64,000 nucleotides of DNA, from assembly GCF_000710775.1 (NCBI RefSeq), contig NZ_JOJP01000001.1, positions 2,767,547 through 2,831,546 on the forward strand, written 5' to 3'. Shown here piece by piece: positions 28,646 to 64,000 of the stretch. The notes under the pieces are model-generated. The model made no database searches, had not been told where the DNA came from, and saw only the letters and a program-made list of their open reading frames with translations. The translations under genes and the position numbers were made by a program. This stretch comes from Endozoicomonas elysicola. GTDB lineage: Bacteria > Pseudomonadota > Gammaproteobacteria > Pseudomonadales > Endozoicomonadaceae. Position 1 is the first letter of the stretch. Each line of letters begins with the position of its first letter.

Positions 28646-30358
28646 TTAATATCCTAAAGCCTTTCTTTCCTCATGGGTCATATAAGGATAAGGCGCCTCA
28701 AAATAGCTTTCAGGTACCTGGTAATCCTTACGCAGCTTATTAAGCTGGGCCGTCATGGTTTTGCGCACTTCCTTATATTCCGGGTTATCGTAAACGTTAT
28801 TGATCTCAAACGGGTCGTTTTCCAGGTCATACATCTCGAATGAGCCCACTCCGGTGTAGAAGTTGATCAGTTTGAAACGATCCGTTCGAACACCATCGTG
28901 ACGTGGAACGTTATGGCCACCATGCTCATAGTAGTGGTAGTAAACCCCCGGGCGCTCAGCCTGCCACTGCTGGTCGGTCTGCTTTCCGGTAAGCAGTCCT
29001 TTAAAGGACTTGCCTTGCATTTCGGCCGGTACATCAGCGCCTACCATGGTCAGAAAGGTTGGGGCAAAATCGATATTCTGAATCATGCCCTGGGGTCTGG
29101 AATCGGGCTCGATTTCCCCTGGCCAGCGGATGAGGAAGGGCATCTTCATACCTTCTTCGTACATGTAGCGTTTTTCAGCCCAGCCATGTTCGCCGATAAA
29201 GAAACTCTGGTCGGAGCTGTAAACAACAATAGTATTTTCAGCGAGCTTATTCTCGTCAAGCCATTCCAGCAGGCGACCTACGTTTTCATCCACGGTCACC
29301 ACCGAAGCCATGTACTCTTTCATAAAGCGCTGGTACATGAACTTGGTGCGTGCCTTCAGGTTTTCCGGAGGAATGTTGTCGCCAAACTGACGCTTGTACG
29401 GCGGAGACTGGATTTTATGCCAGTAATCCATATTCATATCGTCGTAGGCATCGTGCCAGGCCTGACGCTGTTCATAAGTCATCCGGTTCATCCACTCATC
29501 GAAGTTTCGGCGGGTGAAGGTGTCCATCTGGGCAAGCCATTGTTTACGTACGACTTTCTCTTCCGGCGTGCTGCCGTCCGGTGGGAAGGCATTTACCCCC
29601 TCGTCGTTCATGCCGTACATCTGCATCCAGGCGTTTGGCGCATGGTCGCCACGGGTAGCGTAATTATCGTACAGCGTTGCGGGCTCAGGAAACTCATGAT
29701 CCTTGAATAGATTCAGGTGACGAAGCGGTGGGCGCCTTGGGGTATGGGGGGATTTGAACTGTACCATCAATGAGAAGGGCTTACTTTCATCCCGCGATGT
29801 TTCCAGCCAGTTAATGGCTTTGTCCGTAATGACATCGGTTGAATACCCCTCGACGGTGTATACCTTACCCTTGTGATCAATAAACTGCGGGTTGTAATAG
29901 GATCCCTGTCCACCGTGGCTGTTCAGAACCGTAGCGTACTGGAACTCATTGGTTGGCGTGGGGTGCATATGCCACTTGCCAATCAGTGCGGTCTGGTAAC
30001 CTTCATTGGCCAGCAGTCTGGGGAATACCGTCTGGTTACGGTTCCAGCGGGACGTATTGTCGGTTACTCCGTTAAGATGGCTGTGCTTACCGGTAAGAAT
30101 GGACGCACGACTTGGCTGACAGATGGAGTTGCCAACAAAGGTGTTTTCAAAAATGGCACCCTCTCTGGCAATCCGGTCAATATTCGGTGTCTGAACCATT
30201 GTGTCATCGTAGGCACTGATGGCACGGGTGGAATGGTCATCACTGAAGATAAACAGAATATTGGGCTGTTGTGCTGCCGAGGCTGCCTGTGCCATCAGTG
30301 TGGCAGCCGTCAGCATTGCGCCGGCACCACGGTAAAAAGCGGATCGTGTGAAGTTCAT
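28646..30358 (-). CDS. Exported sulfatase (S1 family), copy 1 of a tandem pair
   Basis: 570 aa. Signal peptide of about 28 residues (GAMLTAATLMAQAASA), then the sulfatase core: metal-binding SDDHS at 39-43 and the formylglycine motif CQPSRASILTG (Cys80), IGKWHMHPTP, and SDQSFFIGEHGWAEKRYMYEEGM near the C-terminal metal site. Type I sulfatases hydrolyse sulfate esters after the Cys is oxidised to formylglycine. Sequence style is that of heparan-type/N-acetylglucosamine-6-sulfatase-like S1 enzymes; the exact substrate is unknown. It is very similar along its whole length to the next gene upstream, which shows a recent tandem duplication. It is last in the minus-strand cluster. Confidence 0.92.
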   Translation of the reverse strand: MNFTRSAFYRGAGAMLTAATLMAQAASAAQQPNILFIFSDDHSTRAISAYDDTMVQTPNIDRIAREGAIFENTFVGNSICQPSRASILTGKHSHLNGVTDNTSRWNRNQTVFPRLLANEGYQTALIGKWHMHPTPTNEFQYATVLNSHGGQGSYYNPQFIDHKGKVYTVEGYSTDVITDKAINWLETSRDESKPFSLMVQFKSPHTPRRPPLRHLNLFKDHEFPEPATLYDNYATRGDHAPNAWMQMYGMNDEGVNAFPPDGSTPEEKVVRKQWLAQMDTFTRRNFDEWMNRMTYEQRQAWHDAYDDMNMDYWHKIQSPPYKRQFGDNIPPENLKARTKFMYQRFMKEYMASVVTVDENVGRLLEWLDENKLAENTIVVYSSDQSFFIGEHGWAEKRYMYEEGMKMPFLIRWPGEIEPDSRPQGMIQNIDFAPTFLTMVGADVPAEMQGKSFKGLLTGKQTDQQWQAERPGVYYHYYEHGGHNVPRHDGVRTDRFKLINFYTGVGSFEMYDLENDPFEINNVYDNPEYKEVRKTMTAQLNKLRKDYQVPESYFEAPYPYMTHEERKALGY

Positions 30359-30424
30359 TGTTTTTCCGGAGAGTTTTTAATTCAAATAGCAGTGGGTAAC
30401 AAATCAAAATGAACGGTTAATTCA

Positions 30425-30463
30425 CTGAACCATTTAATACCGGGACAGACTTAAGTGGTTCAG
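30425..30463 (-). repeat. Stem-loop between the two tandem sulfatase genes
   Basis: CTGAACCATTTAA (30425-30437) pairs with TTAAGTGGTTCAG (30451-30463): 13 bp with one G-T pair and a 13-base loop, in the 125-bp gap between the copies. No T-run follows on the minus strand. It may act as an mRNA stabiliser or partial terminator. Confidence 0.6.
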
Positions 30464-30483
30464 CGAAAATACTGAGGCTTACA

Positions 30484-32199
30484 TTAAAAGCCCAGAGCCT
30501 TTCTTTCCTTGCGGTTCATATAAGGGTAGGGAGCAACATAGTAACTTTCGGGCACTTCATACTCCTTACGCAGATTGGTCAGTTGAGCCATCATGCTCTT
30601 GCGCACTTCCTTATATTCCGGGTTGTCATAGACGTTACTGGTTTCGTAAGGGTCGTTGTCCAGGTCATACAGCTCGAAAGAGCCTTCGCCGGTGTAGAAA
30701 TTGATCAATTTGAAACGGTCTGACCTCACTCCATCATGGCGTGGAACGTTATGACCACCGTGCATATAGTAGTGGTAATACAGTCCGGGGCGTTCCGCCT
30801 GCCATTGCTGGTCAGTCTGTTCACCGGTTAGCAGTCCCTTGAAGGATTTGCCCTGCATCTCTTCAGGTACCTCTGCTCCCACCATGCTGAGGAAGGTTGG
30901 TGCAAAGTCGATGTTCTGAATCATGCCCTGTGGTTTCTGGTTAGGCTTGATTCCTTCAGGCCAGCGGATAACAAAGGGCATTTTCATACCTTCTTCGTAC
31001 ATATAGCGTTTTTCTGCCCAGCCGTGTTCACCAATGAAGAAGCTCTGGTCCGAGCTGTAAACGACAATGGTATTTTTTGCCAGTTCATTCTCATCCAGCC
31101 ATTCTAGCAGGCGGCCAACGTTTTCATCCACGGTCACCACTGAAGCCATGTACTCTTTCATAAAGCGCTGGTACATGTACTTGGTACGGGCCTTTCGGTT
31201 TTCCGGAGGAATGTTGTCGCCAAACTGACGCTTGTAGGGGGCAGACTGGATTTTGTGCCAGTAGTCCATGTTCATATCATCGTAGGCATCGTGCCAGGCC
31301 TGGCGCTGTTCCGCATTCATACGCTTCATCCATGAATTGAAGTTTTTGCGCGCATTGGGAGCCATTTTGGCCAGCCACTTTTCACGAACGACTTTTTCTT
31401 CCGGCGTGCTGCCATCCGGTGGGAAGGCATTGATACCTTCATCGTTCATGCCGTAAATCTGCATCCAGGCATTGGGGGCGTGTTCGCCACGGGTCGTATA
31501 ATCATCGTAAAGCGTGGCAGGCTCAGGAAACTCGTGATCCTTAAACAAATTGAGGTGACGCAGTGGTGGTCTTCTCGGGGTATGGGGTGATTTAAACTGC
31601 ACCATCAGGGAGAAGGGCTTACTCTCTTCCCGGGAACCCTCCAGCCAGTTAAGGGCCATGTCCGTGATGACATCGGTGGAGTAACCCTGAACGGTATACA
31701 CATTACTCTTGTTATCAATAAACTGCGGGTTGTAGTAAGTGCCCTGACCACCAGATCCATACAGTACCGTTGAAAACTGGAACTCATTGGTCGGCGTAGG
31801 ATGCATGTGCCACTTGCCTATCAGGGCTGTCTGGTAGCCTTCATCAGCCAGCAGTCTTGGGAAAATGGTCTGGTTGCGGTTCCAGCGGGAGGTATTGTCA
31901 ATAACACCGTTAAGGTGACTGTGTTTACCGGTCAGCACCGAAGCACGGCTTGGCTGGCAGATGGAGTTGCCAACAAAGGTGTTTTCAAAAATGGCACCTT
32001 CTCTGGCGATCCGGTCGATATTCGGTGTCTGAACCATTGTGTCATCATAAGCACTGATGGCACGGGTCGAGTGGTCATCACTGAAGATAAACAGAATATT
32101 GGGTTGTTGAGGTGCTGCCGAGGCGGCTTGGGCCATCAGTGTCGCGGCGGTCAGCATAGCACCGGCACCACGGTAAAAAGCGGATCTTTTGAAATTCAT
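30484..32199 (-). CDS. Exported sulfatase (S1 family), copy 2 of a tandem pair
   Basis: 571 aa from the ATG at 32199, which gives the same N-terminus as the neighbouring copy (MNFKRSAFYRGAGAMLTAAT); the frame is open further upstream but no start there makes sense. Formylglycine motif CQPSRASVLTG with Cys81, metal ligands SDDHS, and GEHGWAEKRYMYEEGMKMP. The two copies share nearly all motifs and long identical stretches. They differ mostly at scattered residues and in the 275-300 region (KMAPNARKNFNSWMKRM against QMDTFTRRNFDEWMNRM), so they may have drifted in specificity. An operator-like GAAACGTTTC lies 200 bp upstream. Confidence 0.92.
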   Translation of the reverse strand: MNFKRSAFYRGAGAMLTAATLMAQAASAAPQQPNILFIFSDDHSTRAISAYDDTMVQTPNIDRIAREGAIFENTFVGNSICQPSRASVLTGKHSHLNGVIDNTSRWNRNQTIFPRLLADEGYQTALIGKWHMHPTPTNEFQFSTVLYGSGGQGTYYNPQFIDNKSNVYTVQGYSTDVITDMALNWLEGSREESKPFSLMVQFKSPHTPRRPPLRHLNLFKDHEFPEPATLYDDYTTRGEHAPNAWMQIYGMNDEGINAFPPDGSTPEEKVVREKWLAKMAPNARKNFNSWMKRMNAEQRQAWHDAYDDMNMDYWHKIQSAPYKRQFGDNIPPENRKARTKYMYQRFMKEYMASVVTVDENVGRLLEWLDENELAKNTIVVYSSDQSFFIGEHGWAEKRYMYEEGMKMPFVIRWPEGIKPNQKPQGMIQNIDFAPTFLSMVGAEVPEEMQGKSFKGLLTGEQTDQQWQAERPGLYYHYYMHGGHNVPRHDGVRSDRFKLINFYTGEGSFELYDLDNDPYETSNVYDNPEYKEVRKSMMAQLTNLRKEYEVPESYYVAPYPYMNRKERKALGF

Positions 32200-32398
32200 C
32201 GTTTTTCCCAGGTGGGGTAAAGTCTTCATTTTGTTAATTGTGAAATCAGCATGACTCAATTGCCGGTAACTCCATTGGCTCTCACTGATTCATCAGGCCA
32301 TTAATAAAATCAGCGGGCAGAAATACGCTTGTTGTGTCGAGTTAATTCATGCAAAAGACAAGTACTGATTCTGTTTTATTATGATATTCATTTTTGTC

Positions 32399-32408
32399 GA
32401 AACGTTTC
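32399..32408. promoter_or_regulatory. LacI-type operator candidate before sulfatase copy 2
   Basis: GAAACGTTTC, a perfect 10-bp palindrome, in the 307-bp gap between the GH144-like gene and the tandem sulfatases. The same sequence occurs before the ABC ATPase gene, and close variants occur before six other units of this locus. The rest of the gap holds a hairpin at 32463-32491 and A+T-rich sequence. Confidence 0.65.
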
Positions 32409-32506: not shown

Positions 32507-33868
32507 TTATCTTGCGGCTGTTGTCGTTTCACTGATAGTGGGTAAAGGCTTTCGATAATCCGCAGGTTCCGGATTGAAATAGTCGTTGAACGTGTTGAAA
32601 AACTCCATGCCCAGATTCTCCGGCAGTGCAGCCAGACCAAACAGCATTGTTGAATAATCCACGGCCTGGATATTGTCAGCCCGCCATTCCGGGTTAGTGG
32701 TACTGTACCGCCAGAGAATAGTGCTGCCATCCTTCAGCTGGTAATGGGCACGCTTGTCAGGATCACGGTACATGGCGATCAAATCGGTTCTTGCCCTCTC
32801 AAGATGGGGTAAGAAGCCGGAAACAATATGGGGAGAAGCAATTTTTTCCAGGTTAAGGTCTTTATCACCGGGAAGGGCGATACGGTCAACACAGTAGCCA
32901 GTGCTGCAGGCTCCAGCGCCACTGCCCCATTCATAAGTTTCCCGACTTTCAATACCCTGATCCTGCCACCACTGAAAATCAGCCATCGCCGCATATCGGG
33001 TGGCCTTCTGATACATCTGGGAGTCAGAGAAGTGATGAACCAGATAGTTGTTGAACTGGAAGTTGAACATGGAGATGAATCGGCTCCGGCCTGCGGAGAG
33101 AACAGGAATCTTCCCGTAATAGCTGATGGGCGTATATTTCAGGGTGTCATACCAGGTGTCCCAGAACCGTATGGCATCGGACCCCATATTCCCAAAGTCC
33201 TCTTCCTGCTGGCGGGCCAGGTCAGCAACAATCATGTATTCATTGAATACCTTGGTTTTATGGCGCTTGAAAGAGCCGTCCTTATGAGCAGCGAGGTAGA
33301 TATGCCCGGTGCGGTAATCGGCAATAAAGGATCTCAGGTCTGTGGTTTCATAGAGCTCATCCACCAGGTCCGCGATTTCCTGGTTGTTATGGAAATACCG
33401 TTTGGCAAACAGGGCACCGCTGAGCATGATGGCGCTGTCGATCGGGCTCCAGTCATCACCGATCGCCTTGCCCGTTTCCACGTTATAAAAGTGGATGTAA
33501 GTGTTGTTATCATTGCGGGGAACCGAGAAGTCAGGGTCTTTGCCGGTCAGTACCTTAAGGCTTTTGATCACCAGTTTTTCGGCTTCAGGTTCCCAGCCAT
33601 TGATATGGCCAATGGTCAGCGCAACCAGGCCCATACCGGAATTGGCAATGGAACCCACTTTGGACTTTCCATCCAGAGGGTACAGGTCGTTGTAGGAACC
33701 ATTGTCGTTTCTCACCATCTGCCAGTAGGTATAGCTGTTACGATAAAGTGTCTGGATTATCGCCTCATCGCTTTCAACAACCTGTGCTGATGGCTGGATA
33801 TTTTCTGCAGCCCAGGAGGGCTGCGCTATGCTCAGGCCCACTGCCAGAGCCCACCCGATTTTTTTCAT
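32507..33868 (-). CDS. GH144-like exported enzyme (PF10091 glycoamylase-like), predicted endo-beta-1,2-glucanase
   Basis: 453 aa from the ATG at 33868, preceded by AAGGAA at 9 bases; it begins with a signal peptide (IGWALAVGLSIAQPSWA). The sequence follows the PF10091 pattern: SIANSGMGLVALTIGHINGW, then NTYIHFYNVETGK, DDWSPIDSAIMLSGALFAKR and FNEYMIVADLA. Characterised members of this fold include GH144 endo-beta-1,2-glucanases, which cut beta-1,2-glucan into short sophoro-oligosaccharides. No membrane anchor is seen, so it is periplasmic or secreted. Neighbours (GH3, GH94, ABC importer, LacI) support the beta-1,2-glucan assignment. Other PF10091 specificities exist, so activity is inferred. 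Confidence 0.8.
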   Translation of the reverse strand: MKKIGWALAVGLSIAQPSWAAENIQPSAQVVESDEAIIQTLYRNSYTYWQMVRNDNGSYNDLYPLDGKSKVGSIANSGMGLVALTIGHINGWEPEAEKLVIKSLKVLTGKDPDFSVPRNDNNTYIHFYNVETGKAIGDDWSPIDSAIMLSGALFAKRYFHNNQEIADLVDELYETTDLRSFIADYRTGHIYLAAHKDGSFKRHKTKVFNEYMIVADLARQQEEDFGNMGSDAIRFWDTWYDTLKYTPISYYGKIPVLSAGRSRFISMFNFQFNNYLVHHFSDSQMYQKATRYAAMADFQWWQDQGIESRETYEWGSGAGACSTGYCVDRIALPGDKDLNLEKIASPHIVSGFLPHLERARTDLIAMYRDPDKRAHYQLKDGSTILWRYSTTNPEWRADNIQAVDYSTMLFGLAALPENLGMEFFNTFNDYFNPEPADYRKPLPTISETTTAAR

Positions 33869-35661: not shown

Positions 35662-37824
35662 CTAACGGGGGGAAAGCTCACAATGACCCTGGAGCGTTGC
35701 ATTGCAGTCACCTCCGACAAATACCTCCAGTTGACCATCAAAATCCTGTTGCTTGCCAAGGGCAAAGTAGGTTCTTTGCTCCGGAGTGATCTGCAGGGTA
35801 ATGGTGCGGGTCTCACCCGGTTTCAGGGTGATCCGGGCAAAGTCTTTCAGCTCTCTGGTGGGGCGTGTTGTTTCAGCCACTGGCAGGCGAACATAACATT
35901 GAGCCACTTCAGTAGCAGTAACCGCTCCCTCATTGGTCAGCTCAAAGGTAACGTTCAGGTTTTCAGTGCTGTCGAGCTGCTGGTGGGACAGATGCAGATT
36001 TTTATAGCTGAACTGGCTGTAGGTCAGACCAAAACCAAATGGATACAGTGGCTCTGCACTTTCATCCTTGTAGGGCTGGTAGTCCTGAAAGTCCCGCATT
36101 TTGCCAATGGGCTTGCGGCCATAATAAATGGGCACCTGTCCGGTAGTTCTGGGCATGGTCATGGGTAAACGGCCGGAGGGGGATACATAGCCAAGCAGTA
36201 TTCTGGCAACGGCATGACCGGTTTCAGTTCCTGCCTGCCAGGCAAACAGCAGGGCATCGGCATACTGTTCTGCGGCAGGTGATGGAATTGGGCGGCCACC
36301 GCATTGAACCACAACCAGCGGCTTGCCGGTTTTGCCAATGGCAGTGATCAGCTGTTCCTGACCGGCAGGCAGCGCCAGTTCGGCAATGTTTCTGGCTTCA
36401 CCGGTACGGCGATGGCTTTCGCCGACACAGAGAATCACCACATCAGCACGCCGGGCACACTCCACCATGTCGTCACTGAAATCTGCCGGTTCGGTAAGGA
36501 TCTCCAGCTCAGGTGCCGCCGCCACCAGACCTTCATAAATGGAGGTCACATCCTCGGTCTTACCATCCAGGCACCAGGAGCCCAGATGCTGTCGTTTAGA
36601 GTGCGCATGGGGGCCGATAACGGCAACTCTCAGGCTTTTACGGGCCAGTGGTAGTATCTGCTGCCGGTTCTTCAGCAGAACCATGGACTGTTCTGCAAGA
36701 TGTTGTGCCATGGCCACATGATCTTCACGCCGCATGACGTTCAGGTGACGCTGTTCATCCACATAAGTGGACTCAAACAGTCCAACTCTGAATTTGGCTC
36801 TCAATACACGGCAGACCGAATCATTAATGGTTTCAATATCAATGTTGCCGGCATCCAGCAGGTTGGCCAGATGATCTTCATAGGCCTCATTGGTCATGGC
36901 CATATCCACACCGGCCTTTAAGGCCATGGTGGCTGCTCCGGCAGCGTCCCGGCTGACCCCGAAGTAGGCGAGGTCTGAAATTGACCCCCAGTCACTGACG
37001 ACCAGACCATCAAAGCCCTGGGATTCCTTAAGCCATCCGCGAATCAAACGTCGACTGCCGGATACTGGCTCTCCGCCAAGGTCGTTAAAGCCGGACATCA
37101 GGCTGCCAACACCGGCTTCCAGTGCCGCTTTAAACGGCGGCAGATAAACGTTGTGAAGCGTATTGTCGGTGATCTCGGTGGTGTCGTAGTCACGGCCACC
37201 TTCTGCCGCGCCGTAACCGACAAAATGCTTGGCACAGGCCAGCAGTGATTCGGCGTCTGACAGGTTTTCTCCCTGGAAGCCGTTAACAACGGCTCTGGCA
37301 AACTGGCTGCTCAGGTAGGGATCTTCACCGCTGCTTTCAATCACCCGACCCCAGCGGGGGTCCCGGACGATATCCAGCATCGGTGCAAACGTCCAGTGAA
37401 TGCCCAGGGAGGCTGCTTCTCTGGCAATACCCCGGTAGGCTTCCTGAACCAGTTGCGGGTTCCAGGAAGCAGCTTGAGCCAGGGGGATGGGCAGAACGGT
37501 TTGCTGACCGTAGATCACATCCCGAGCCACAATCAGAGGAATGCCAAGACGGCTCTCTTCAACGGCCACCCGCTGTATTTCATTCAGTGTTGATGGATCG
37601 ACCGTGAGCCCGGGCGCATTTCCTGCCCAGGCGGTATCTGCCAGAATTCGTGACCCCCAGCGTCCCTGTCGAACACCTTCAAGGTAAGCCTCCCGGTTGG
37701 CCTCAAACTCCAGCATGGGGGTCTGGCACAGCTGACCGATTTTCTCCGCAAGGGTCATGCGGGACAGAAGGTCCTGAACACGCTCTTCAATGGGGAGCGT
37801 GGCATCCTGATATGGGGTACTCAT
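35662..37824 (-). CDS. GH3 beta-glucosidase, cytoplasmic
   Basis: 720 aa without a signal peptide, so it acts on imported oligosaccharides. GH3 N-terminal barrel with RWGRVIESSGEDPYLSS, KHFVGYGAAEGGRDYD and the nucleophile in GLVVSDWGSI (Asp278). The second domain (LRVAVIGPHAHSKRQHLGSW; ILCVGESHRRTGEARN) and a C-terminal fibronectin-III-like domain (ELTNEGAVTATEVAQCYVR) complete the usual layout. The length matches the Listeria innocua GH3 enzyme that works beside 1,2-beta-oligoglucan phosphorylase on sophorose. GGAA lies about 7 bases before the ATG. It precedes sulfatase 3 and the GH144-like gene on the same strand. Confidence 0.92.
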   Translation of the reverse strand: MSTPYQDATLPIEERVQDLLSRMTLAEKIGQLCQTPMLEFEANREAYLEGVRQGRWGSRILADTAWAGNAPGLTVDPSTLNEIQRVAVEESRLGIPLIVARDVIYGQQTVLPIPLAQAASWNPQLVQEAYRGIAREAASLGIHWTFAPMLDIVRDPRWGRVIESSGEDPYLSSQFARAVVNGFQGENLSDAESLLACAKHFVGYGAAEGGRDYDTTEITDNTLHNVYLPPFKAALEAGVGSLMSGFNDLGGEPVSGSRRLIRGWLKESQGFDGLVVSDWGSISDLAYFGVSRDAAGAATMALKAGVDMAMTNEAYEDHLANLLDAGNIDIETINDSVCRVLRAKFRVGLFESTYVDEQRHLNVMRREDHVAMAQHLAEQSMVLLKNRQQILPLARKSLRVAVIGPHAHSKRQHLGSWCLDGKTEDVTSIYEGLVAAAPELEILTEPADFSDDMVECARRADVVILCVGESHRRTGEARNIAELALPAGQEQLITAIGKTGKPLVVVQCGGRPIPSPAAEQYADALLFAWQAGTETGHAVARILLGYVSPSGRLPMTMPRTTGQVPIYYGRKPIGKMRDFQDYQPYKDESAEPLYPFGFGLTYSQFSYKNLHLSHQQLDSTENLNVTFELTNEGAVTATEVAQCYVRLPVAETTRPTRELKDFARITLKPGETRTITLQITPEQRTYFALGKQQDFDGQLEVFVGGDCNATLQGHCELSPR

Positions 37825-37874: not shown

Positions 37875-38042
37875 CTAGGAGGCTGTCCGAGAATAGCGCC
37901 CGTAGCGAGGATGGCAGAAAATTGAGGATCAAAAATCCTTTTTGTGAGGTGAATAGTGGTTCTATTTGCCAAACAAAAAGGATTTTTTAGACCAATTTGC
38001 TGCCACCGCAGTAGGGCAGTCTATTCTCGGACAGGCTCCTAG
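37875..38042. mobile_element. MITE-like palindromic element, 168 bp
   Basis: The two ends are 22-base inverted repeats that match at 21 positions (37875-37896 and 38021-38042; shared core CTGTCCGAGAATAG). Inside lies a second inverted pair, CAAAAATCCTTTTTGT and ACAAAAAGGATTTTTT. The whole element can fold into one long hairpin and codes for nothing. The right end overlaps the last codon of the neighbouring 157-aa gene, supplying its TAG stop. Size, terminal repeats and lack of a transposase fit a miniature inverted-repeat element; no clear target duplication was seen apart from CTAG inside both ends. Confidence 0.78.
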
Positions 38043-38512
38043 TGGTGTGTAAACTCTGGAAATGCTTCGGTCAGAAATTCCGTCATCTCGGTGGCCAGTT
38101 GCTCATCACCATTTTGTCTGGCCCGCTCCTGCAGTTCGACAGCGGCCTCCGGGACATAACGCAGATCCAGCTGAACGTAGATATCGATAAATTTCAGCAG
38201 TTCAGCGTCTGACAGTTTTGGCAGAACCTCACTGGCAGCGGTGATAGCCTGCTGATAGAAACCGGGTCTCGGGCCTAACAGGCTGGATTCCCAGGTTTCG
38301 ATTACCTGCTGATAGCCCCCCAGGTAGGGGTCTTCAAGGCGCAGTTCGAGCTTGTTCATACCTTTCAGGGCGGTTACCCATTCACCCTGCTGCATTTGCT
38401 CCTGGGCATACTCGAAGTAAGCACTGGACTGGCGGTAAGCCGTAATCCAGGCCGCACAGTAAGCCAGCAATAGAAACAGGCCGATAAGAGAGAGTTTTTT
38501 CCCGAGGCTCAT
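38039..38512 (-). CDS. Unknown membrane-anchored protein of the glucan importer operon
   Basis: 157 aa, not recognised. One N-terminal membrane span (LSLIGLFLLLAYCAAWITAY) is followed by a helical, TPR-like soluble part (SAYFEYAQEQMQQGEWVTAL; SDAELLKFIDIYVQLD) that would face the periplasm. The ATG at 38512 overlaps the stop of the permease gene before it (TAATG), so it is co-translated with the importer and may assist it. Its stop codon lies within the right end of the MITE-like element, so the original C-terminus may have been different. Confidence 0.72.
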   Translation of the reverse strand: MSLGKKLSLIGLFLLLAYCAAWITAYRQSSAYFEYAQEQMQQGEWVTALKGMNKLELRLEDPYLGGYQQVIETWESSLLGPRPGFYQQAITAASEVLPKLSDAELLKFIDIYVQLDLRYVPEAAVELQERARQNGDEQLATEMTEFLTEAFPEFTHH

Positions 38513-47551: not shown

Positions 47552-47607
47552 TGAGGTGGCTCCCTGATGTGACTGAGGTTTGAGTCGATGTTGATCATCG
47601 CTCTGTA

Positions 47608-50770: not shown

Positions 50771-50909
50771 CTGATGTATATCAATAAAAGGGTTTTCTGC
50801 AGGCGTTGAAAGAAAAGTTATCAAGTATTGATGAATAAAGGGCTGTATGGGAGTTTGGTTGATTTTCATGCGGGCTGGCTTGATTGATTGCAAATGGTTG
50901 AAACGTTTA
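50771..50909 (+). promoter_or_regulatory. Promoter region of sulfatase 5: FNR-type box and LacI-type operator
   Basis: CTGAT-GTAT-ATCAA (50771-50784) differs from the FNR consensus TTGAT-N4-ATCAA at one base. GAAACGTTTA lies at 50900-50909, inside TGAAACGTTTATATT, which recurs exactly before sulfatase 6. The two elements are 129 bp apart here and 126 bp apart there. The 430-bp gap 50604-51033 holds no gene. Confidence 0.6.
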
Positions 50910-51033
50910 TATTGCTGTGGTTTTTCGTGGTGGCTCTGAATAAGCAAGCCGTTCTAGCCGGAAACAGGCTAGCAGAAAATGGTTATCTGTCAGGAGTTTC
51001 ACCATTCACCACTTGGGCAGGGCAATAGTGCTT

Positions 51034-55797: not shown

Positions 55798-55933
55798 CTG
55801 ATGTAAATCAATAAATTGATTATTTCATCATACGCCTGTTTTTGGGTTTTTTTCTTAACTTGTTGTTTATTATGGTTTATTCTTTATTTCGGTCATTTTT
55901 TGTCCCCTTGAAAGTATTCTGCTGAAACGTTTA
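55798..55933 (+). promoter_or_regulatory. Promoter region of sulfatase 6: FNR-type box and LacI-type operator
   Basis: CTGAT-GTAA-ATCAA (55798-55811), one base from the FNR consensus, and GAAACGTTTA at 55924-55933 inside TGAAACGTTTATATT. The order, spacing and flanks repeat those before sulfatase 5. The ATG lies 95 bases after the operator. Confidence 0.6.
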
Positions 55934-56027: not shown

Positions 56028-57554
56028 ATGAATAAAACAACCTCCCTGTTGGCAGCAGGGTGTCTGGCTGCTTCTTCAATGGTCAGTGCCGCCAGCGCGC
56101 CGGTGAATATCATGTTGATTACCGCCGATGACCTGGGGTATGAGGCATACAGCCTGTTTAATAATGAGTTGCCAGACCTGACACCGAACATGGATCAGTT
56201 TGCTGCTGAAGGTGTTCAGTTTGAGCATGCCCATGTCAATCACTCGATCTGTCAGCCCAGCCGTGCCGTTATGCTGACCGGTAAGTACAGTACCACTTCC
56301 GGAATGATGGGCTTTATCCATATGAAGGATCAGGTACCAACGGTTATGACGACGCTGGCCGAACATGGCTATCGTACCGGTATTCTGGGCAAGGTAGGTC
56401 ACTCCAGCCCGGATCTGGCTTATCAGTGGGATTACTCATTTGATGCCAACGACCTTGGCGCAGGCCGCTCTCCCCAGTTGTATCATCAGCGTACCAAAGA
56501 TTATATCGAGCAGAGTAAAAAAGCCGGCAAGCCTTTTTTTCTGATGGTGAACTCCCACGACCCTCATCGAGCTTTCTATGATCCGGCAGGTAAAAGACAG
56601 GGTGGGGATGAGAAAACGCCCTCCAGACTTTATACCCCGGATGAAGTAACCGTACCTTCTTATCTGCCGGACTACCCTGAGATTCGTCTTGATCTCTCCC
56701 ATTATTACAACTCGGTTCGCCGTCTGGATGATACCTTTGGGCAGGTTATCGATGCCCTGGAAGAGACCGGTGCAGCGGATAACACCCTGGTCATATTTGT
56801 TTCAGACAACGGTTCTCCATTCCCTTATGCCAAGGCCAATACCTATCTGGCCAGTACCAAAACCCCGCTGCTGGTTCAGTGGCCGAATGGCAAGCTGGAG
56901 AACGGTTCAGTGGATGATGAGCATGTTGTGTCCACGGTTGATCTGATGCCAACCATGCTGGAAGCGGCAGGCATTGATATTCCTGATACAGTGGATGGTC
57001 GTTCATTCCTGCCATTATTGAAAGGCGAGGAGCAGGATAACCGGGACTACACCTTCTCCCAGATCGACTACAAAATCGGTGGACCGGCAACGCCAATGCG
57101 AGCGGTTCAGAGTAAAGAATTTGGCTACACCTTTAATGCTTTTGCCGGCTTCTCCGAGTTTAAAGTGGGCTACGATCGTCAGGCGATTAATCTGATGAAG
57201 CAGTCTGATGATCCCGAAATGAAAGAGCGGGCAAAGCACTTCAGAAAGCGGGTACCAGAAGAGTTTTACGACCTGAAGAACGATCCAGACAACATCAACA
57301 ACCTGATTGATAACCCTGAATACCAGCAGGTCATCAAACAGTACCGGGCCAAACTGGAAGAGTGGATGGCGAAGAATGAGGATCCGGTCCTTGAGATCTT
57401 TAATCACCGTGATGATCCCCAGAAGATGCGAGCGTTGATGAAGACTCACTACCCAACGAAAAACAGTTTGATGTCCAAGGCACAGAAGGAACATATGGCC
57501 GCGAAGAAAGCCGAGAAGCGCGCACGGCGTAAGAACAACAAAGACAGTAGTTAA
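56028..57554 (+). CDS. Exported sulfatase, paralogue of sulfatase 5 without ExoP modules
   Basis: 508 aa. The first ~460 residues follow sulfatase 5 closely, from the identical start MNKTTSLLAAGCLAASSMV through the formylglycine motif CQPSRAVMLTGKYS (Cys75), ILGKVGHSSPDL and FVSDNGSPFPYAK. Instead of binding modules it ends with a short tail containing THYPTKNSLM and a Lys/Arg-rich end (KKAEKRARRKNN). The HDPHRAFYDP and GKVGH segments recall sulfamidase-like S1_8 enzymes. Gene and promoter were evidently duplicated together with those of sulfatase 5. Confidence 0.93.
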   Translation: MNKTTSLLAAGCLAASSMVSAASAPVNIMLITADDLGYEAYSLFNNELPDLTPNMDQFAAEGVQFEHAHVNHSICQPSRAVMLTGKYSTTSGMMGFIHMKDQVPTVMTTLAEHGYRTGILGKVGHSSPDLAYQWDYSFDANDLGAGRSPQLYHQRTKDYIEQSKKAGKPFFLMVNSHDPHRAFYDPAGKRQGGDEKTPSRLYTPDEVTVPSYLPDYPEIRLDLSHYYNSVRRLDDTFGQVIDALEETGAADNTLVIFVSDNGSPFPYAKANTYLASTKTPLLVQWPNGKLENGSVDDEHVVSTVDLMPTMLEAAGIDIPDTVDGRSFLPLLKGEEQDNRDYTFSQIDYKIGGPATPMRAVQSKEFGYTFNAFAGFSEFKVGYDRQAINLMKQSDDPEMKERAKHFRKRVPEEFYDLKNDPDNINNLIDNPEYQQVIKQYRAKLEEWMAKNEDPVLEIFNHRDDPQKMRALMKTHYPTKNSLMSKAQKEHMAAKKAEKRARRKNNKDSS

Positions 57555-57704: not shown

Positions 57705-57775
57705 ATGTCGTCAAATGACCAGCCTCATATCAGTTAAGTTTGGCAACATTGTAAAGCTTGTCTGGGGGACATTTT

Positions 57776-60700
57776 GTGAAGGTCGAAAATCCAGTGGGTC
57801 ACGTACGACAAAGGTTGAGCATAGCCGTTCGAATTGCCCTGTTTTCCGGACTGGGCATGGCGTTGTCCGCCTGTGGTGGCGATGAGTCAGGAGGGGAAAC
57901 GGTAACGCCTCCACTCCCACCACCTGTCATAGATATTGCTATTGAACCATGGTCATTTGATGGCAGTAATGGGGATCTGGTCAGTGCAGCCCAGGTCTCC
58001 GGGTTGTATGCCGCAGCTGATAGCAGCGGCGACTTGATAGAAATTCGTGATATTCATGAAACCGTTCTGCATGAAATATCGGTGGGTGAGCTGTCTTCAG
58101 TGTTGCCTGATTTCAGTTTCAGTGGCGAAAACGGTATCTGTGGTATGACTCTGACGCCATCAGGCCGTTTTCTCTATATAGCAGCCTGTATGGAAGGAGA
58201 GAGTGATAATAAGGACGCTATTGTCGCTTATAACACCAATACCAGGGAGCTGACACTTCTTGACCGGGTAACACTGGTTACTGACGAGGTAAGGCCCGTT
58301 GGAATGACTTACTTCAAAGGCCAGCTTTATGTGGGCGGGGATGCGGGAATTCATCGATACGATGCCACCCGGAACCGCGTCTTTGACGTTCGTAACAACA
58401 ATCTGGATGTTACTGGTCAGCTGGTGGCTACTCAGCAGCCGGTTACTGGTCTCGCCGTGGATATGGTGGATGAAAAAATTTACTTCACCACACAGGGCTC
58501 ACTGAACCGTATGCAACCTGATGGCTTTGGCATGACCACGCTCTCTTCAGGAGTCGGATTTGACAGGGTAACCATGGGGGCGGTCTATGGTAATGACGAC
58601 TCTGATGGACTGTTCCTTCTGAAACACATTGCTGATGGCTCCCGAATTCTGAAGATACCGTCCGAAGCGCTACGAGCTGGCCAGCCGGTTAGCCCAGAGG
58701 TTTATGCCGAGCTTGACTATACAGTGGATGATATTTCAGCCACTGCCGATGGTCGGATGATGCTGGCAGCCCAGCAGATCCAGATGATGAGGGATAACAC
58801 AGATCCACGATTGAGCTACCAGGACTGGTTGCAGGATGAACTCCACCAGTATTACCTGGCCATAAAGAGTCTGGTTGAAGACGGCAGTATTGAAGGAACC
58901 AGTACCTTATTGGGCAGGCCCGGCTTTCTGTTAAGCAAGATCGTTCAGGAAGGGGGGAGTCCGGACAAATCACCGGTAGCGGATAATGTGGGCTGGGCGC
59001 TGTTTCTGTTGATGGCCATTGACCAGGTGCAGCCAAATCCCGAGATCGAACGGCTGGTGGAATTGTTGATTGAGCGTCATGCAGGCCTGTATTCCGATGG
59101 TTATGGTGGCGTGCGCACAGTGGACGGTCATTTTGTCCGAATGTACGGCAGCGATGGCCTGCCCAAAACAGGTGGACCGGAAAAGTCGCAACCGCAGGTT
59201 TATGTCAGCATGAAGTTTCTGCCTGCCGCTTATAAGGCAGCAGAGATGTACCCGCACAATGAACGTTTGCAGACTTACAAAGAGTACCTCAGGCAGTTGC
59301 TGCAGCGTTCATCCGATACCATTCGAGCCAACCAGAAAATTACCTGGACCAATGACGATTATGGTCCGTTACTTAACAATAATGCCATGTCCAATGAAAC
59401 CTGGCTGTTCGGGGATATCGGTGCAGCCCAGGACCCATTGGCGACTGAAGATTATGCACACTATGTTTATGATCGCCGTAACTTTGTCTATGACCATTGG
59501 CTTAAGGGGGAGGCAGTCATAAGGGCTGGGCATTCAGCCTTTATTGTGATGGGGGGGACGCTGATACTCAAACATCATGCAGAAGATGCGGGCTGGGCAG
59601 CTTTCAACCGTAACTACTATGCTGCGACCATGGCGGAAACCGATGATATGGGAGCTCCCTATTTTGGCGGATTCTCGGCAGGGAACCAGCCGACGTGTCC
59701 GACTGGAAATGAGGACTGGTGTGGTGGATACCATGCGGATGGTCCCTCCGATCACCCCAATGACATTATCCATTTTCCCGCCGTCCTTGGCTTTGGGCAG
59801 CATGGCCATACGCCGGCAGTCGTCGGAGCCTACATGGCTTATCGCGATGGAAAGCGTCAGCCAATGAATAATGCTGCGGGCGGTGAGCCGATCAATATGC
59901 TGACCCGCTGGTCCATGGCAGAACCTGATTACACGATGAAAGCGGTCGGTATTGCTGACTTCTGGTTTGGTGGTGTTGGCCTGGTTGAAGCCATTCAACC
60001 GGGTACCGTTGACCGTTTCCGGGCTGAATTTTACCGGCCGGATCTGGAAGTGGAACGGAGCAACGGTCAAACGACGCTCCATTATTCAAACATTACCCCC
60101 AGAAAAGTGATCGGGCATGATGGTCAGAAAGAAACTCATTACGGCTATCAAATGTCACCATTCAACTTGCCTGCCGGTATCAGTCATCAGGATTATGAAA
60201 TTATTGACCCAGAGGGTGAATGGCTGGAGCTGGAAGATTTGGTCAGTGAGCTGGATGGAAAGAGCAAACGCTTCTCCAATCCGGGTTTTGAAAATGGACT
60301 CGATAGCTGGACAACCAACGGCGATGTGACTGTGGTAGACAGTGAAACTGGCAGTGCTGCTCAAGTTTCAGGTGTTGGTGCTCTTGGTCAACCGCTTGAA
60401 CTGTCCATGGATCTTCCAGGCACACGTTATCGGATTAGCAGTACGTCAGAAATGAAGCAGGGGAGTGGCAAGGGGTATATACGGCTGCAGTGGCGGGCAT
60501 CAGAAGATATTCTGGACCCTGTTCTGGAAGAAGCGGTCAGTAATGAAATAACCTCAGTTGGCAGTGGGCAGGCGTTATCCGTCGTTACTGAAAAGCCTGC
60601 AGGTGCTGGCTACCTGCATATCAATTATGTAACGGAAGGTGCTGACAGTGTTTTTCTGTTTGATAACACCGCAGCCGTGCGGCAGGGGGCTGACTCCCCT

Positions 60701-61222
60701 CTGGAAAATGGAGATTTTGCAGGTGGTGAAAATGGCTGGGATGTGAGATCTGGCAGTAAGCTCGTAGACAACCCGAATGGTGTTGATGGAAAAGCATTAC
60801 TGATGAAACGGAGTGTTGGCCAGAGCGGTGCCACCAATGTTTTCCGGAATGAAGATGTTTCGCTTGACCCACTGGGCACACGCTATCTTTATCGTTTTGA
60901 TGTCACTACAGAGGGATCTGATGAGTTTATCTTTGAGGTTGATGTGGAAGTGCTTGATGCAGCAGGCCAGCGTATTATTCTGAGGGAAAATGCTGGTGAT
61001 GTATTACCCGGGCAGAAAGGTGAAGTCACTTTTGTGATGAGAAAACGACCAGGCGATCATACTCATCGAATTAATTTCCAGATGACAAGAGACGGAGAAA
61101 AAGATTTCAGAGATGCCAGCGTCTTTATAGATAACTTCCATCTTGATAAGCAGAAATTATTTGATGAATCTGCCTGTGTCAGTGATAGTCCAACAGGCTG
61201 TTTGCCCACAAGAGTTCAATAA
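57776..61222 (+). CDS. Large multidomain lipoprotein, putative new polysaccharide-active enzyme
   Basis: 1148 aa from the GTG at 57776 (GGGGGA 7 bases upstream). Lipobox LSAC with Cys33. Residues ~45-330 show repeated beta-propeller-like strands (GMTYFKGQLYVGGDAGIHRY; VDMVDEKIYFTTQGSLNRM). Residues ~340-780 are helical with aromatic and acidic clusters (DNVGWALFLLMAIDQV; TWTNDDYGPLLNNNAM; WLFGDIGAAQDPLA; HHAEDAGWAAFNRNYYAATM; GHSAFIVMGG), resembling an alpha/alpha-barrel lyase or hydrolase, but no family was recognised. Two C-terminal modules (FSNPGFENGLDSW; LENGDFAGGENGWDV) look like CBM_4_9/CBM-type sugar-binding domains. It lies between two sulfatases, so polymer cleavage at the outer membrane is a reasonable guess. 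Confidence 0.78.
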   Translation: MKVENPVGHVRQRLSIAVRIALFSGLGMALSACGGDESGGETVTPPLPPPVIDIAIEPWSFDGSNGDLVSAAQVSGLYAAADSSGDLIEIRDIHETVLHEISVGELSSVLPDFSFSGENGICGMTLTPSGRFLYIAACMEGESDNKDAIVAYNTNTRELTLLDRVTLVTDEVRPVGMTYFKGQLYVGGDAGIHRYDATRNRVFDVRNNNLDVTGQLVATQQPVTGLAVDMVDEKIYFTTQGSLNRMQPDGFGMTTLSSGVGFDRVTMGAVYGNDDSDGLFLLKHIADGSRILKIPSEALRAGQPVSPEVYAELDYTVDDISATADGRMMLAAQQIQMMRDNTDPRLSYQDWLQDELHQYYLAIKSLVEDGSIEGTSTLLGRPGFLLSKIVQEGGSPDKSPVADNVGWALFLLMAIDQVQPNPEIERLVELLIERHAGLYSDGYGGVRTVDGHFVRMYGSDGLPKTGGPEKSQPQVYVSMKFLPAAYKAAEMYPHNERLQTYKEYLRQLLQRSSDTIRANQKITWTNDDYGPLLNNNAMSNETWLFGDIGAAQDPLATEDYAHYVYDRRNFVYDHWLKGEAVIRAGHSAFIVMGGTLILKHHAEDAGWAAFNRNYYAATMAETDDMGAPYFGGFSAGNQPTCPTGNEDWCGGYHADGPSDHPNDIIHFPAVLGFGQHGHTPAVVGAYMAYRDGKRQPMNNAAGGEPINMLTRWSMAEPDYTMKAVGIADFWFGGVGLVEAIQPGTVDRFRAEFYRPDLEVERSNGQTTLHYSNITPRKVIGHDGQKETHYGYQMSPFNLPAGISHQDYEIIDPEGEWLELEDLVSELDGKSKRFSNPGFENGLDSWTTNGDVTVVDSETGSAAQVSGVGALGQPLELSMDLPGTRYRISSTSEMKQGSGKGYIRLQWRASEDILDPVLEEAVSNEITSVGSGQALSVVTEKPAGAGYLHINYVTEGADSVFLFDNTAAVRQGADSPLENGDFAGGENGWDVRSGSKLVDNPNGVDGKALLMKRSVGQSGATNVFRNEDVSLDPLGTRYLYRFDVTTEGSDEFIFEVDVEVLDAAGQRIILRENAGDVLPGQKGEVTFVMRKRPGDHTHRINFQMTRDGEKDFRDASVFIDNFHLDKQKLFDESACVSDSPTGCLPTRVQ

Positions 61223-61268: not shown

Positions 61269-61335
61269 ATTAATTCCTGTCTCTGTATGGCCTGTCATTT
61301 TTTAATAATTGTTGCAGTATCTAAAAGGTTATCCC

Positions 61336-62721
61336 TTGAAGTATTTTAAAAAAACCATAACTGCACTTATGGTCAGCTCAACGCTTTCTATAGCTCAGGT
61401 TGCAGCTCAGCCAAATATTGTTGTCATCGTAAGTGATGACTTGAATTACAGTGGTTTAAGTTTTACCGGGAATAGTAAGGTAAAAACACCCAATATTGAT
61501 TCCATTTTTCAAGATGGTGTTTTCTTTGAAAATGGCTATGTGACTCATGCGGTATGTGCACCTTCTCGGGCTGGCATGATGACTGGCCGTTATCAGGCAA
61601 GGTTTGGTTATGAAACCCTCACTTCCAATGATAAAGATGGGGTGAAGCATGATATTGGTGTTGATACCCGTGAGATATTTCTATCTGAGGTTTTGAAAGA
61701 GGCTGGGTATACAACGGCGGCATTTGGGAAGTGGCATCTTGGGGTAAATGAAAAGTATCAGCCCTACAACCGGGGATTTGACTATGTTTATGGTCATCCG
61801 GGCAGATGCAGCTATTACAATTGGGACAGCCTGCGCATTAATGGGGTAGAAGTAAGCTTCAGGGAAGAAGATAAAATTGCCGTCTTCGACCATAAAGGAA
61901 GGCAGCGTGGCGATGCTTATACGACGGAAGCACTTGGCCGGGCTGCAGCAGACTTTATTGATAAAAAGGGCAGTAAACCTTTTTTCCTGTATTTCGGCTC
62001 GTACAATGTCCATAAACCGTTGCAGGTTCCCTTGGAATATATTCCTGAAGGTGGTGATATTTATGATGGAATGGTTGCAGCGCTTGATGCTAATGTTGGT
62101 ACTATTCTGAACGCCATTGAAAGTAATGGGCTGGAAGACAATACCCTGATGTTCTTTGTGAATGACAATGGTGGTACCAAAGGCCATGCAAATGGTGTGT
62201 TTCAGGGTGGTAAGGCAACCAACTGGGAAGGCGGAATTCGTGTTCCTTTTGGCCTTAAGTGGCCAGAAAAATTATCAGGCGGAAAAAATTTTACAGGTAT
62301 TACCTCGACCATGGATATATTTCCAACAGCGGTCGCCGCTGCGGGTGCTGAAATGCCTGTTGACCGTTCTTATGATGGTGTTGATCTGATGCCCTGGTTA
62401 CTGGGTAAAAAAGCGGGTAACCCCCATGAAACTCTGTTCTGGCGATCAGGGTATGGGCATGCGATGAGAATGGGGAAGTATAAATTACTCTGGATGGCGG
62501 ATAAAAAGAAAAGTATGGCCAATGAAAGGCAGCATTATGGTAGGAAAAAATTTAAATGGGAGTTGCCGCTTTATAAGGATAAGCACAAGACGTATATGGC
62601 TCCGAAATTATTTGATCTTTCAAAAGATCCCGGGGAGCAGATCGATATATCGAATAAATTTCCAGAAATCACGGAAAAAATGATCCGTCAAATTGAGGGG
62701 TTTGATATAGAGATGAGGTGA
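61336..62721 (+). CDS. Exported sulfatase (S1 family)
   Basis: 461 aa starting at the TTG at 61336, which has AAAAGG 8 bases upstream and opens directly on a signal peptide (YFKKTITALMVSSTLSIAQVA). No ATG lies at a suitable place. Metal motif VSDDLNYSG, formylglycine motif CAPSRAGMMTGRYQARFG with Cys74, FGKWHLGVN, NDNGGTKGHANG, and DPGEQIDISNKFPE at the end. The RYQARFG segment is typical of N-acetylgalactosamine-6/arylsulfatase-type S1 enzymes and is close to sulfatase 4 in style. It is more A+T-rich than the other sulfatase genes. Substrate unknown. Confidence 0.91.
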   Translation: MKYFKKTITALMVSSTLSIAQVAAQPNIVVIVSDDLNYSGLSFTGNSKVKTPNIDSIFQDGVFFENGYVTHAVCAPSRAGMMTGRYQARFGYETLTSNDKDGVKHDIGVDTREIFLSEVLKEAGYTTAAFGKWHLGVNEKYQPYNRGFDYVYGHPGRCSYYNWDSLRINGVEVSFREEDKIAVFDHKGRQRGDAYTTEALGRAAADFIDKKGSKPFFLYFGSYNVHKPLQVPLEYIPEGGDIYDGMVAALDANVGTILNAIESNGLEDNTLMFFVNDNGGTKGHANGVFQGGKATNWEGGIRVPFGLKWPEKLSGGKNFTGITSTMDIFPTAVAAAGAEMPVDRSYDGVDLMPWLLGKKAGNPHETLFWRSGYGHAMRMGKYKLLWMADKKKSMANERQHYGRKKFKWELPLYKDKHKTYMAPKLFDLSKDPGEQIDISNKFPEITEKMIRQIEGFDIEMR

Positions 62722-62769: not shown

Positions 62770-62800
62770 AGAAAATATTAAGCGATAGAGCAAAAAAATA

Positions 62801-62837
62801 CCTTAAGCCATGGCTGACTTAAGGTATAACAAAGGCT
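62801..62837 (-). terminator. Terminator of the right-edge gene
   Basis: ATACCTTAAG / CTTAAGGTAT, 10 bp with a 10-base loop; on the minus strand the stem is followed by a run of seven Ts. It lies 18 bp after the stop codon of the minus-strand gene. Confidence 0.85.
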
Positions 62838-62854
62838 AAATAAAATACTAATGA

Positions 62855-64000
62855 CTATTGAACAACCGGTGCTGGATTCATGACCAGTTTAAGATCAGCA
62901 ATGGTGAACTGGGCACCTCTCAGTAAATAGCCCAGTTCATCCTGATCGTTCTTTTCACCGTTATTCAGCTTGAACATGAAGGGTTTGGTGATCGCAAGCA
63001 GTGAGCTGGCAAGTGCATTACCGTTCTCATCTTTCTTAACGAATTCCTTAACCGGGATAGTCACTGTTTTTGGTGTGGCTGATATCTGGTCAGCGGTCAG
63101 CGTATAAATGGCTTCAAAGTCATCATTGTCCTGCATGGAAACGGTCACAGAAGTTGTTGCTTCTGAGCCAGCAGGTAAGGTGACACTTAAGTCAAAAGAA
63201 AGTATACCGTTTTCAATATAATTTCTGAGGTTAATCGGGGTGTCTGCCTTACTGTCAGTGATACCGACCCCGGCAACTGCTTTGCTATGGGTATCTGGAA
63301 TGGTTGCAGTCAGAGTAGCAACCTTCGTGACAGGGTCTGCATCGGTAATTGACCAGCCGCTGGCGCCTGCACCGGAGCCATCTTTTGGCAGCTGTAATCC
63401 GGTTAGCGTGGCTGTCCAGGGAGCTGCCGCGATACCGCCGGGTTTGGATGTCTCATCAGTGAGCAGCAGCAAGGATTCAGCATCGTCGAGGACGGTATTG
63501 GCAATGGCAGTACAAGGCAGGTCATAACCGGGAGACAGACTGTCCGGCGACATAATGACTTTGCCGAGAGTGAAGTTGAGGTCAGTGCTGGTGGTCAGTC
63601 TGAATGGTTCATCTACTTGGGTGAAATCAACATCAGCAAAGCAGCTCAGAGGTACCCTTATTTTCTGAGTGGATTCTGCTGCTGTAAAGGCATATATCGC
63701 ATCGGTAATATCAACAGGCGTTGCTGTTGCACCGGTTGAGACGGTGACAAGATTTGATGCAGTGGACACTGGTAAGTTATTAATGTCACTGACTTCAATA
63801 TGCAGTGTGCCATTACTGTTGGTGTTTGAAAGGTCTTGGCTTTCTGTGCTGTCCGTTAGAATAGAGGCGTCAGAAGCGCTGCCAATACTCAGATCCACAG
63901 CGACTGCCAGCGGATCCCCCAGTTCACCATCAACTGCGGCAGGCTGGGTAGAAATAGCCCCTACGGTATGAATACCACTTCCTGGAACCAGACTGGGTTC
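62855..64000 (-). CDS. C-terminal part of a protein with tandem ExoP-type binding modules, cut by window edge
   Basis: The minus frame is open from the right edge to the stop at 62855 (381 codons), so the N-terminus lies outside. The visible part matches the extra tail of sulfatase 5: AVDGELGDPLAVAVDLSIG corresponds to its GDPLSISISG start; NGTLHIEVSDINNLP, RVPLSCFADVDFTQVDEPF and NGILSFDLSVTLPAG are in the same order, and it ends ITKPFMFKLNNG followed by IADLKLVMNP. These are two ExoP-type galactose-binding-like modules. The missing upstream part could be a sulfatase or a GH3 exo-glucanase. An in-frame GTG at 63898 is not a likely true start, because the homology continues beyond it. Confidence 0.82.
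   Translation of the reverse strand, partial: EPSLVPGSGIHTVGAISTQPAAVDGELGDPLAVAVDLSIGSASDASILTDSTESQDLSNTNSNGTLHIEVSDINNLPVSTASNLVTVSTGATATPVDITDAIYAFTAAESTQKIRVPLSCFADVDFTQVDEPFRLTTSTDLNFTLGKVIMSPDSLSPGYDLPCTAIANTVLDDAESLLLLTDETSKPGGIAAAPWTATLTGLQLPKDGSGAGASGWSITDADPVTKVATLTATIPDTHSKAVAGVGITDSKADTPINLRNYIENGILSFDLSVTLPAGSEATTSVTVSMQDNDDFEAIYTLTADQISATPKTVTIPVKEFVKKDENGNALASSLLAITKPFMFKLNNGEKNDQDELGYLLRGAQFTIADLKLVMNPAPVVQ

Follow-up and report, generated by a model that had tools for sequence, protein, structure and literature searches.

A beta-1,2-glucan utilisation locus of Endozoicomonas elysicola with sulfatases and a shared predicted LacI operator

Beta-1,2-glucans are signalling, osmotic and symbiosis polymers of bacteria and, to our knowledge, are not known as sulfated marine polysaccharides. 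The cluster for their use in Listeria innocua presumably also contains an ATP-binding cassette (ABC) importer and a LacI regulator, as does the one treated here, and we know of no sulfatases in it. Its GH3 enzyme Lin1840 is encoded next to the 1,2-beta-oligoglucan phosphorylase (SOGP) Lin1839 (PMC4757417). The SGL clan of Photobacterium gaetbulicola and Endozoicomonas elysicola comprises GH192, GH194 and the orphan Group 4 (PMC12102758). The known carbohydrate sulfatases of families S1_11 and S1_19 act on N-acetylglucosamine (GlcNAc), galactose or algal glycans. Here we describe a gene cluster of the marine symbiont E. elysicola that brings relatives of these proteins together. It lies in a 64,000-nucleotide stretch of contig NZ_JOJP01000001.1 (positions 2767547–2831546, hereafter the window) and continues into the stretch directly after it (L003). 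An earlier reading of the letters of the window alone (the original prediction) had proposed a beta-1,2-glucan locus surrounded by seven sulfatases.

The gene cluster is real and larger than was first stated. It spans from about position 28646 of the window to L003:14204, which represents about 46 kb of the 5.6-Mb genome. Pfam confirmed the proposed GH3 enzyme, CUT1-type importer, LacI regulator and GH94 protein (of the SOGP type) in one cluster, together with the seven sulfatases, the SGNH esterase and the ExoP-type (Exop_C) modules. Beyond the window, it recognised an Exop_C lipoprotein, a GH192 enzyme, a second GH3 enzyme and an eighth sulfatase. The original prediction had overlooked these last three features other than GH192 (the lipoprotein, the GH3 enzyme and the sulfatase), as well as a Group 4 protein, porin-like proteins and a predicted operator. 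The system belongs to the beta-1,2-glucan utilisation loci, with the removal of sulfate as its new half. Its SOGP is similar by sequence to that of L. innocua, and the locus differs from the Listeria cluster by the addition of eight sulfatases, SGL-clan enzymes, Exop_C lipoproteins and porin-like proteins. The SGL-clan enzyme EeSGL1 is encoded beside the window, and the related locus of P. gaetbulicola encodes PgSGL3 and the presumed PgSGL4. The difference from the published account of that clan lies in the neighbouring sulfatases, unmentioned in the parts covered, where the 11 "sulf" words are reagents or one reference (PMC12102758). We lean slightly towards one co-regulated, LacI-controlled regulon for the use of a sulfated beta-1,2-glucan.

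The genes assigned to depolymerisation, import and phosphorolysis in the window were the following.

32507..33868, minus strand: exported GH194 endo-beta-1,2-glucanase, predicted from sequence; the open frame extends to 33955, with a signal-peptide start at 33868
35662..37824, minus strand: putative GH3 beta-glucosidase without signal peptide, hence placed in the cytoplasm (Pfam, N-terminus)
38039..38512, minus strand: small protein with a single N-terminal hydrophobic stretch, conserved alongside the importer, no Pfam match
38512..39333, minus strand: ABC permease (PF00528), 81–84% identity across related loci
39330..40211, minus strand: ABC permease (PF00528)
40282..41523, minus strand: ABC solute-binding protein (PF01547)
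41754..42740, minus strand: LacI-family regulator, presumed reader of the operator (PF00356 and PF13377)
43009..46425, minus strand: predicted GH94 1,2-beta-oligoglucan phosphorylase, SOGP (PF21958, PF21250, PF21270); the open frame extends to 46467
46433..47635, minus strand: MalK-type ABC ATPase (PF00005 and OB_MalK), whose true start is probably 3' of the operator

The protein encoded at 32507–33868 had been called PF10091/GH144. This identity was rejected, as the 32507–33955 frame matched no Pfam family at E<=0.01, PF10091 included, and the best relative was the GH194 enzyme PgSGL3 (PDB 8XUK, 533 bits, 57% identity). The acids D173 and E239 were invariant in the aligned GH194 copies, and their spacing of 66 residues is the same as in PgSGL3, where the catalytic acids D148 and E214 were mutated and endo-activity on beta-1,2-glucan was demonstrated (PMC12102758). 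The original prediction had been prepared to give way if this protein lay outside GH144 and was inactive on beta-1,2-glucan; the GH144 call being wrong, the first half of this came true, and the second did not, the 57% identical relative being active. The only PF10091 match in the E. elysicola genome was found about 6–6.7 kb past the window, at L003:5961–7310. This gene encodes EeSGL1 (424 of 425 aligned residues identical to PDB 8XUJ), a published endo-beta-1,2-glucanase assigned to GH192 (PMC12102758).

The phosphorylase (43009–46467) carried the SOGP_N, SOGP_2nd and SOGP_4th domains of Pfam. It scored 782 bits against the Listeria SOGP (5h3z) and at most 27 bits against cellobiose phosphorylases. 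A cellobiose- or laminaribiose-type GH94, which would also have spoken against the original prediction, was rejected on these scores. With an SOGP-type GH94 and two SGL-clan enzymes that have beta-1,2-glucanase relatives, the reading as a beta-1,2-glucan pathway holds and is strengthened. The CUT1-type importer (38512–41523 and the ATPase at 46433–47635) was recognised by Pfam. Across related loci the counterparts of the GH3 enzyme were 67–70% identical and those of the small protein 52–63%, and the DNA-binding segment of LacI was near-identical among the five regulators compared.

The seven sulfatases of the window were as follows.

28646..30358, minus strand: exported sulfatase, group B (S1_11-like), PF00884 and SGSH_C, formylglycine motif CQPSR
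30484..32259, minus strand: exported sulfatase, group B (S1_11-like), PF00884
33952..35601, minus strand: exported sulfatase, group A (S1_11-like, by sequence of a gluco-6-O-sulfatase type), PF00884
47981..49453, minus strand: exported sulfatase, group D (S1_19-like), PF00884, 310 bits to 6prm
51013..53424, plus strand: exported sulfatase with a C-terminal Exop_C glucan-binding-like module, PF00884 and PF18559, CQPSR
56028..57554, plus strand: exported sulfatase adjoining the Group 4 gene, PF00884, CQPSR
61309..62721, plus strand: exported sulfatase, PF00884, CAPSR

All seven possessed a formylglycine motif of the Cys type. Eight of the 18 PF00884 matches of the genome fell within the 46-kb locus (binomial P about 8e-13). 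The stretches around GH194 similarly held 14 of the 20 sulfatases of Photobacterium rosenbergii, 8 of 17 in Photobacterium lutimaris and 4 of 15 in Vibrio inusitatus. The 34 sulfatases of four loci all had the C-x-P-S/T-R motif, and 31 had in addition G-K-x-H. Grouped at 50% identity over 350 residues, those of the four genomes formed groups A (7 members), B (9), C (10) and D (3) besides a pair and three single sequences, with A, B and C represented in every genome compared. The group A sulfatase at 33952, which adjoins the cytoplasmic GH3 gene here and in related loci, had 67–77% identical relatives in P. rosenbergii, P. lutimaris, V. inusitatus, P. gaetbulicola and a second Vibrio genome, G835. 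The group D sulfatase of G835 is divided between two frames (C1:1349619–1351073).

These enzymes resemble the S1_11 and S1_19 carbohydrate sulfatases in family, in the formylglycine motif and, for group A, in a conserved segment with the presumed Asp/Arg pair, and differ from the known members in being tied to beta-1,2-glucan enzymes. The nearest named relatives of group A were the GlcNAc-6-sulfatases 7p24 and 5g2v (527–531 bits), behind the unnamed "putative sulfatase" 9s03; among solved relatives named by activity, 5g2v also ranked first for the group B sulfatase at 30484 (414 bits). The segment GEHGWFDKRFMYEE is kept in group A as in both GlcNAc-6-sulfatases. It reads D-K-R in 7/7 members of group A and E-K-R in group B (five of nine aligned), where Glu replaces the Asp; we take D-K-R to hold the Asp/Arg pair D361/R363 of BT4656. 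In S1_11, an Asp/Arg pair (98% conserved) recognises O4 and a His recognises O3 of the gluco-configured sugar, and about half of the family, mostly aquatic, is devoid of the region for the N-acetyl group (PMC10154612). Such a recognition, with the N-acetyl region often missing, would suit a 6-sulfated glucose. Concerning the maturation of sulfatases, the P. rosenbergii locus contains an anSME-type maturase-like gene (radical SAM and SPASM) with an operator before it, and the E. elysicola genome contains two PF03781 (FGE-type) genes, both outside the locus.

The tie between sulfatases and glucanases includes a shared predicted operator. Palindromes with a central CG were searched for, which yielded GAAACGTTTC in intergenic stretches. 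The positions in and next to the window were:

32399..32408: predicted operator GAAACGTTTC, 140 bp upstream of sulfatase 30484–32259
42879..42888: predicted operator with one mismatch, GAAACGATTC, before lacI
47608..47617: predicted operator GAAACGTTTC, before the ATPase/SOGP operon
50900..50909: predicted operator GAAACGTTTA, before sulfatase 51013
55924..55933: predicted operator GAAACGTTTA, before sulfatase 56028 and the Group 4 gene
64323: predicted operator 38 bp upstream of the Exop_C lipoprotein gene 62855–64285

Within the 104 kb of E. elysicola covered, the pattern GAAACGTTTM occurred at 11 places, all of them in the locus (2799945–2844585), and the 20 kb preceding the window had none. 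It precedes sulfatases 30484, 51013 and 56028, the ATPase/SOGP operon, EeSGL1, both Exop_C lipoprotein genes, the three porin-like genes and one small exported protein. Shuffles of the window gave a mean of 0.21 operator rows, compared to the six observed. A longer operator form, TGNWGAAACGTTTM, had nine mismatch-free rows, corresponding to eight places in 5.6 Mb, all inside the locus. Outside the sample on which the motif was fixed, 80 kb each of P. gaetbulicola (G768) and G835, fetched afterwards, contained 13 and 7 places, respectively, which makes a better test than the counts in E. elysicola. A related pattern, searched in whole genomes, had 14 places in P. rosenbergii, 10 of them inside the locus (an eleventh lies about 10 kb beyond); the corresponding figures were 7 of 10 in P. 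lutimaris and 2 of 3 in V. inusitatus.

Five further genomes, three of Photobacterium and two of Vibrio, had related loci. A first genome scan with one query sequence had returned no locus, and a second with two query sequences returned three. GH194 was rare (1 of 390 genomes of the order of E. elysicola, 3 of 52 in the genus of P. rosenbergii and 2 of 227 in that of V. inusitatus), and each of its seven copies, in six genomes, had a sulfatase within 1.7 kb. In each of the six, the sulfatase genes are interspersed with glucanase genes, and the two have operators in common. The order sulfatase A, GH3, small protein, importer, LacI, SOGP, ATPase is kept as a collinear block in the five other genomes with GH194 (P. 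rosenbergii, P. lutimaris, P. gaetbulicola, V. inusitatus and G835). The SOGP_N domain was present in 5 of 369 genomes of the class, of which the four besides E. elysicola (SOGP identity 32–34%) served as controls. None of the four control loci showed a sulfatase in the 33–40 kb read (tblastn and a profile of the 34 sulfatases), although G700 offered only 11 kb on one side, and none showed a GAAACGTTTM place. The original prediction had concluded that the substrate is sulfated or acylated. The tie of the sulfatases to the pathway stands on the shared operators, the conserved neighbourhoods and the clean controls; acylation is weak because blastp with the SGNH esterase gave no counterpart in any of the related loci examined.

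We propose the following course of events. Outside the cytoplasm, the exported sulfatases (gluco-6-O-type S1_11 and S1_19-like) would strip the sulfate, and GH194 and GH192 (EeSGL1) would cleave the beta-1,2-glucan chain. The Exop_C lipoproteins and porin-like proteins may bind and admit the oligosaccharides, and the Group 4 protein would probably trim short or still-modified pieces. The CUT1 importer would carry desulfated sophoro-oligosaccharides into the cytoplasm, where SOGP would release glucose 1-phosphate and GH3 glucose. We infer the order of these steps, their locations, the role of Group 4 and the reading of the operator by LacI. The sulfate would be carried by the glucan itself, as suggested by the joint control, the conserved order and the absence of another recognised depolymerase in the E. 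elysicola locus. A regulon that is common to Endozoicomonas, Photobacterium and Vibrio species and joins beta-1,2-glucanases to sulfatases predicts a polymer that is apparently undescribed. For the orphan Group 4 enzymes and several sulfatase groups, it also supplies a substrate class that can be tested directly. Testing would be cheap, since other groups have produced EeSGL1, PgSGL3 and PgSGL4 before (PMC12102758).

The Group 4 gene of the window was the following.

57758..61222, plus strand: exported Group 4 SGL-clan protein of 1154 residues, relative of PgSGL4

It had no match in Pfam, NCBIfam or the PDB. It was 41% identical over 1174 aligned positions (848 bits) to protein 14 of G768, which we take to be PgSGL4 because the neighbouring GH194 protein matches 8XUK at 100% identity over 412 residues and because genes 14, 42 and 44 reproduce the spacing of tags 0194, 0222 and 0224 (PgSGL4, PgSGL3 and PgSGL1). 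The assignment of G768 to P. gaetbulicola follows from the same two points. PgSGL4 represents Group 4, no substrate was found for it, and its predicted pocket is small (PMC12102758). By analogy, a propeller, an (alpha/alpha)6 barrel and two binding domains may be expected; the predicted structure model was unusable (mean pLDDT 33). Residues E547, F595 and Y635 were invariant in the eight copies. E547 and Y635 align to E239 and Y341 of GH194, the base position being Val, with a profile probability of 86.7% using four rows but 17.2% using eight; the comparison with the GH192 profile gave no signal. One of 369 genomes of the class carried Group 4, as did 5 of 52 in the Photobacterium genus. A sulfatase was located within 1.4 kb in six of eight full-length copies (65 bp upstream for the presumed PgSGL4 gene); among the eight, G797 stops at a contig edge and is uninformative on sulfatase neighbours. 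P. rosenbergii has a further Group 4 gene, which stands 111 bp from a sulfatase gene among unrelated genes, away from the main locus (L055:13896–19465).

Several observations weigh against a sulfated beta-1,2-glucan as the substrate. We know of no such polymer, and the open-licence literature, searched in limited wordings, gave no account of it or of a pairing of beta-1,2-glucan with sulfatases. Groups C and D were nearest to the carrageenan sulfatases of S1_19 (4-sulfatases), and the S1_19 relatives of known substrate act on galactose sulfates. The concentration of the longer operator form in the locus is partly built in, as this form was refined on the same sites. With one mismatch allowed, the whole genome gave 47 rows compared to 37 for a reversed-pattern control. 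In Photobacterium, a GH43 with F5/F8-type modules (P. gaetbulicola) and a GH3-PA14 (P. rosenbergii) suggest a more complex glycan. In G783, the 20 kb around the Group 4 gene contain no sulfatase, the neighbours being LacI, LamB, PTS EIIC, GH1 and ROK, a context which suggests that Group 4 releases small beta-glucosides. In the published work the SGL-clan enzymes were assayed on unsulfated glucan, and PgSGL4 showed no activity on beta-1,2-glucan or Sop2-5 (PMC12102758). An action on a sulfated substrate would explain this inactivity on the plain polymer. It is possible, with considerable doubt, that a natural marine sulfated beta-1,2-glucan exists and that Group 4 enzymes act on the polymer or on still-sulfated oligosaccharides. 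A strict link of Group 4 to sulfate is weakened by G783, without sulfatase, and by G835, where GH194 and sulfatases are present and Group 4 is absent in 80 kb.

The relation of groups C and D to carrageenan 4-sulfatases and the additional Photobacterium enzymes would be expected if the regulon dismantled a sulfated mixed polysaccharide, with beta-1,2-glucose as one part and several sulfatases acting on other residues such as galactose. We consider this unlikely: the glycosidase-type proteins identified in the E. elysicola locus are limited to the SGL clan, GH3 and SOGP, and V. inusitatus retains four sulfatases with only GH194, Group 4, two GH3 and SOGP, a set obtained by blastp with the E. 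elysicola genes. The same LacI signal might instead serve two co-occurring nutrients, an unsulfated beta-1,2-glucan and a separate sulfated host or algal glycan. The activity of the glucanases on unsulfated beta-1,2-glucan (PMC12102758) and the Group 4 copy of G783, which lives without sulfatases, agree with this, but the E. elysicola locus showed no recognisable lyase or depolymerase directed at a different sulfated glycan, and the interleaved genes with operators in common in 6/6 GH194 genomes make it quite improbable. Finally, the sulfatase-fold enzymes could be phosphodiesterases stripping phosphoglycerol from bacterial periplasmic or cyclic glucans, as phosphoglycerol-type substituents are known on bacterial beta-1,2-glucans and the formylglycine fold is able to act on phosphate esters. 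This appears very unlikely, since the closest solved relatives are carbohydrate sulfatases and the NCBIfam arylsulfatase model scored above the PehA model for 7/7 sulfatases of the window.

The remaining features of the window were:

49473..50144, minus strand: exported SGNH/GDSL esterase (PF13472)
50232..50666, minus strand: small exported protein of a recurring family, no Pfam match
62855..64000, minus strand: lipoprotein with an Exop_C module (PF18559); the frame continues past the window end to 64285

In L003, three proteins (880–2007, 2439–3548 and 13227–14204) have an N-terminal signal peptide and a C-terminal phenylalanine. Two had no Pfam match and one a sub-threshold match to DUF7840. 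From their sequences they look like outer-membrane barrels, and "porin-like" is our own designation. The small exported family without Pfam match (50232–50666 and L003:4540–4881) recurs beside porin-like and Exop_C genes in the Photobacterium and Vibrio loci. A membrane protein of the CNNM/CBS/CorC type (53764–55017) lies within the locus without a mismatch-free operator before its gene, and is probably an unrelated resident. In P. rosenbergii, a methyl-accepting chemotaxis receptor (L014:9839–11500) adjoins GH3-PA14 and sulfatase A; its position is occupied in P. lutimaris and P. gaetbulicola by a 553-residue protein. Genes of the MoxR/DUF58/VWA type flank the E. elysicola locus (L003:14311–19741). 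Relatives of them flank the locus in P. rosenbergii, P. lutimaris, P. gaetbulicola and G835, and the 80 kb covered in V. inusitatus showed none. An operator precedes the MoxR gene in P. lutimaris, and a role of these genes in the system is possible.

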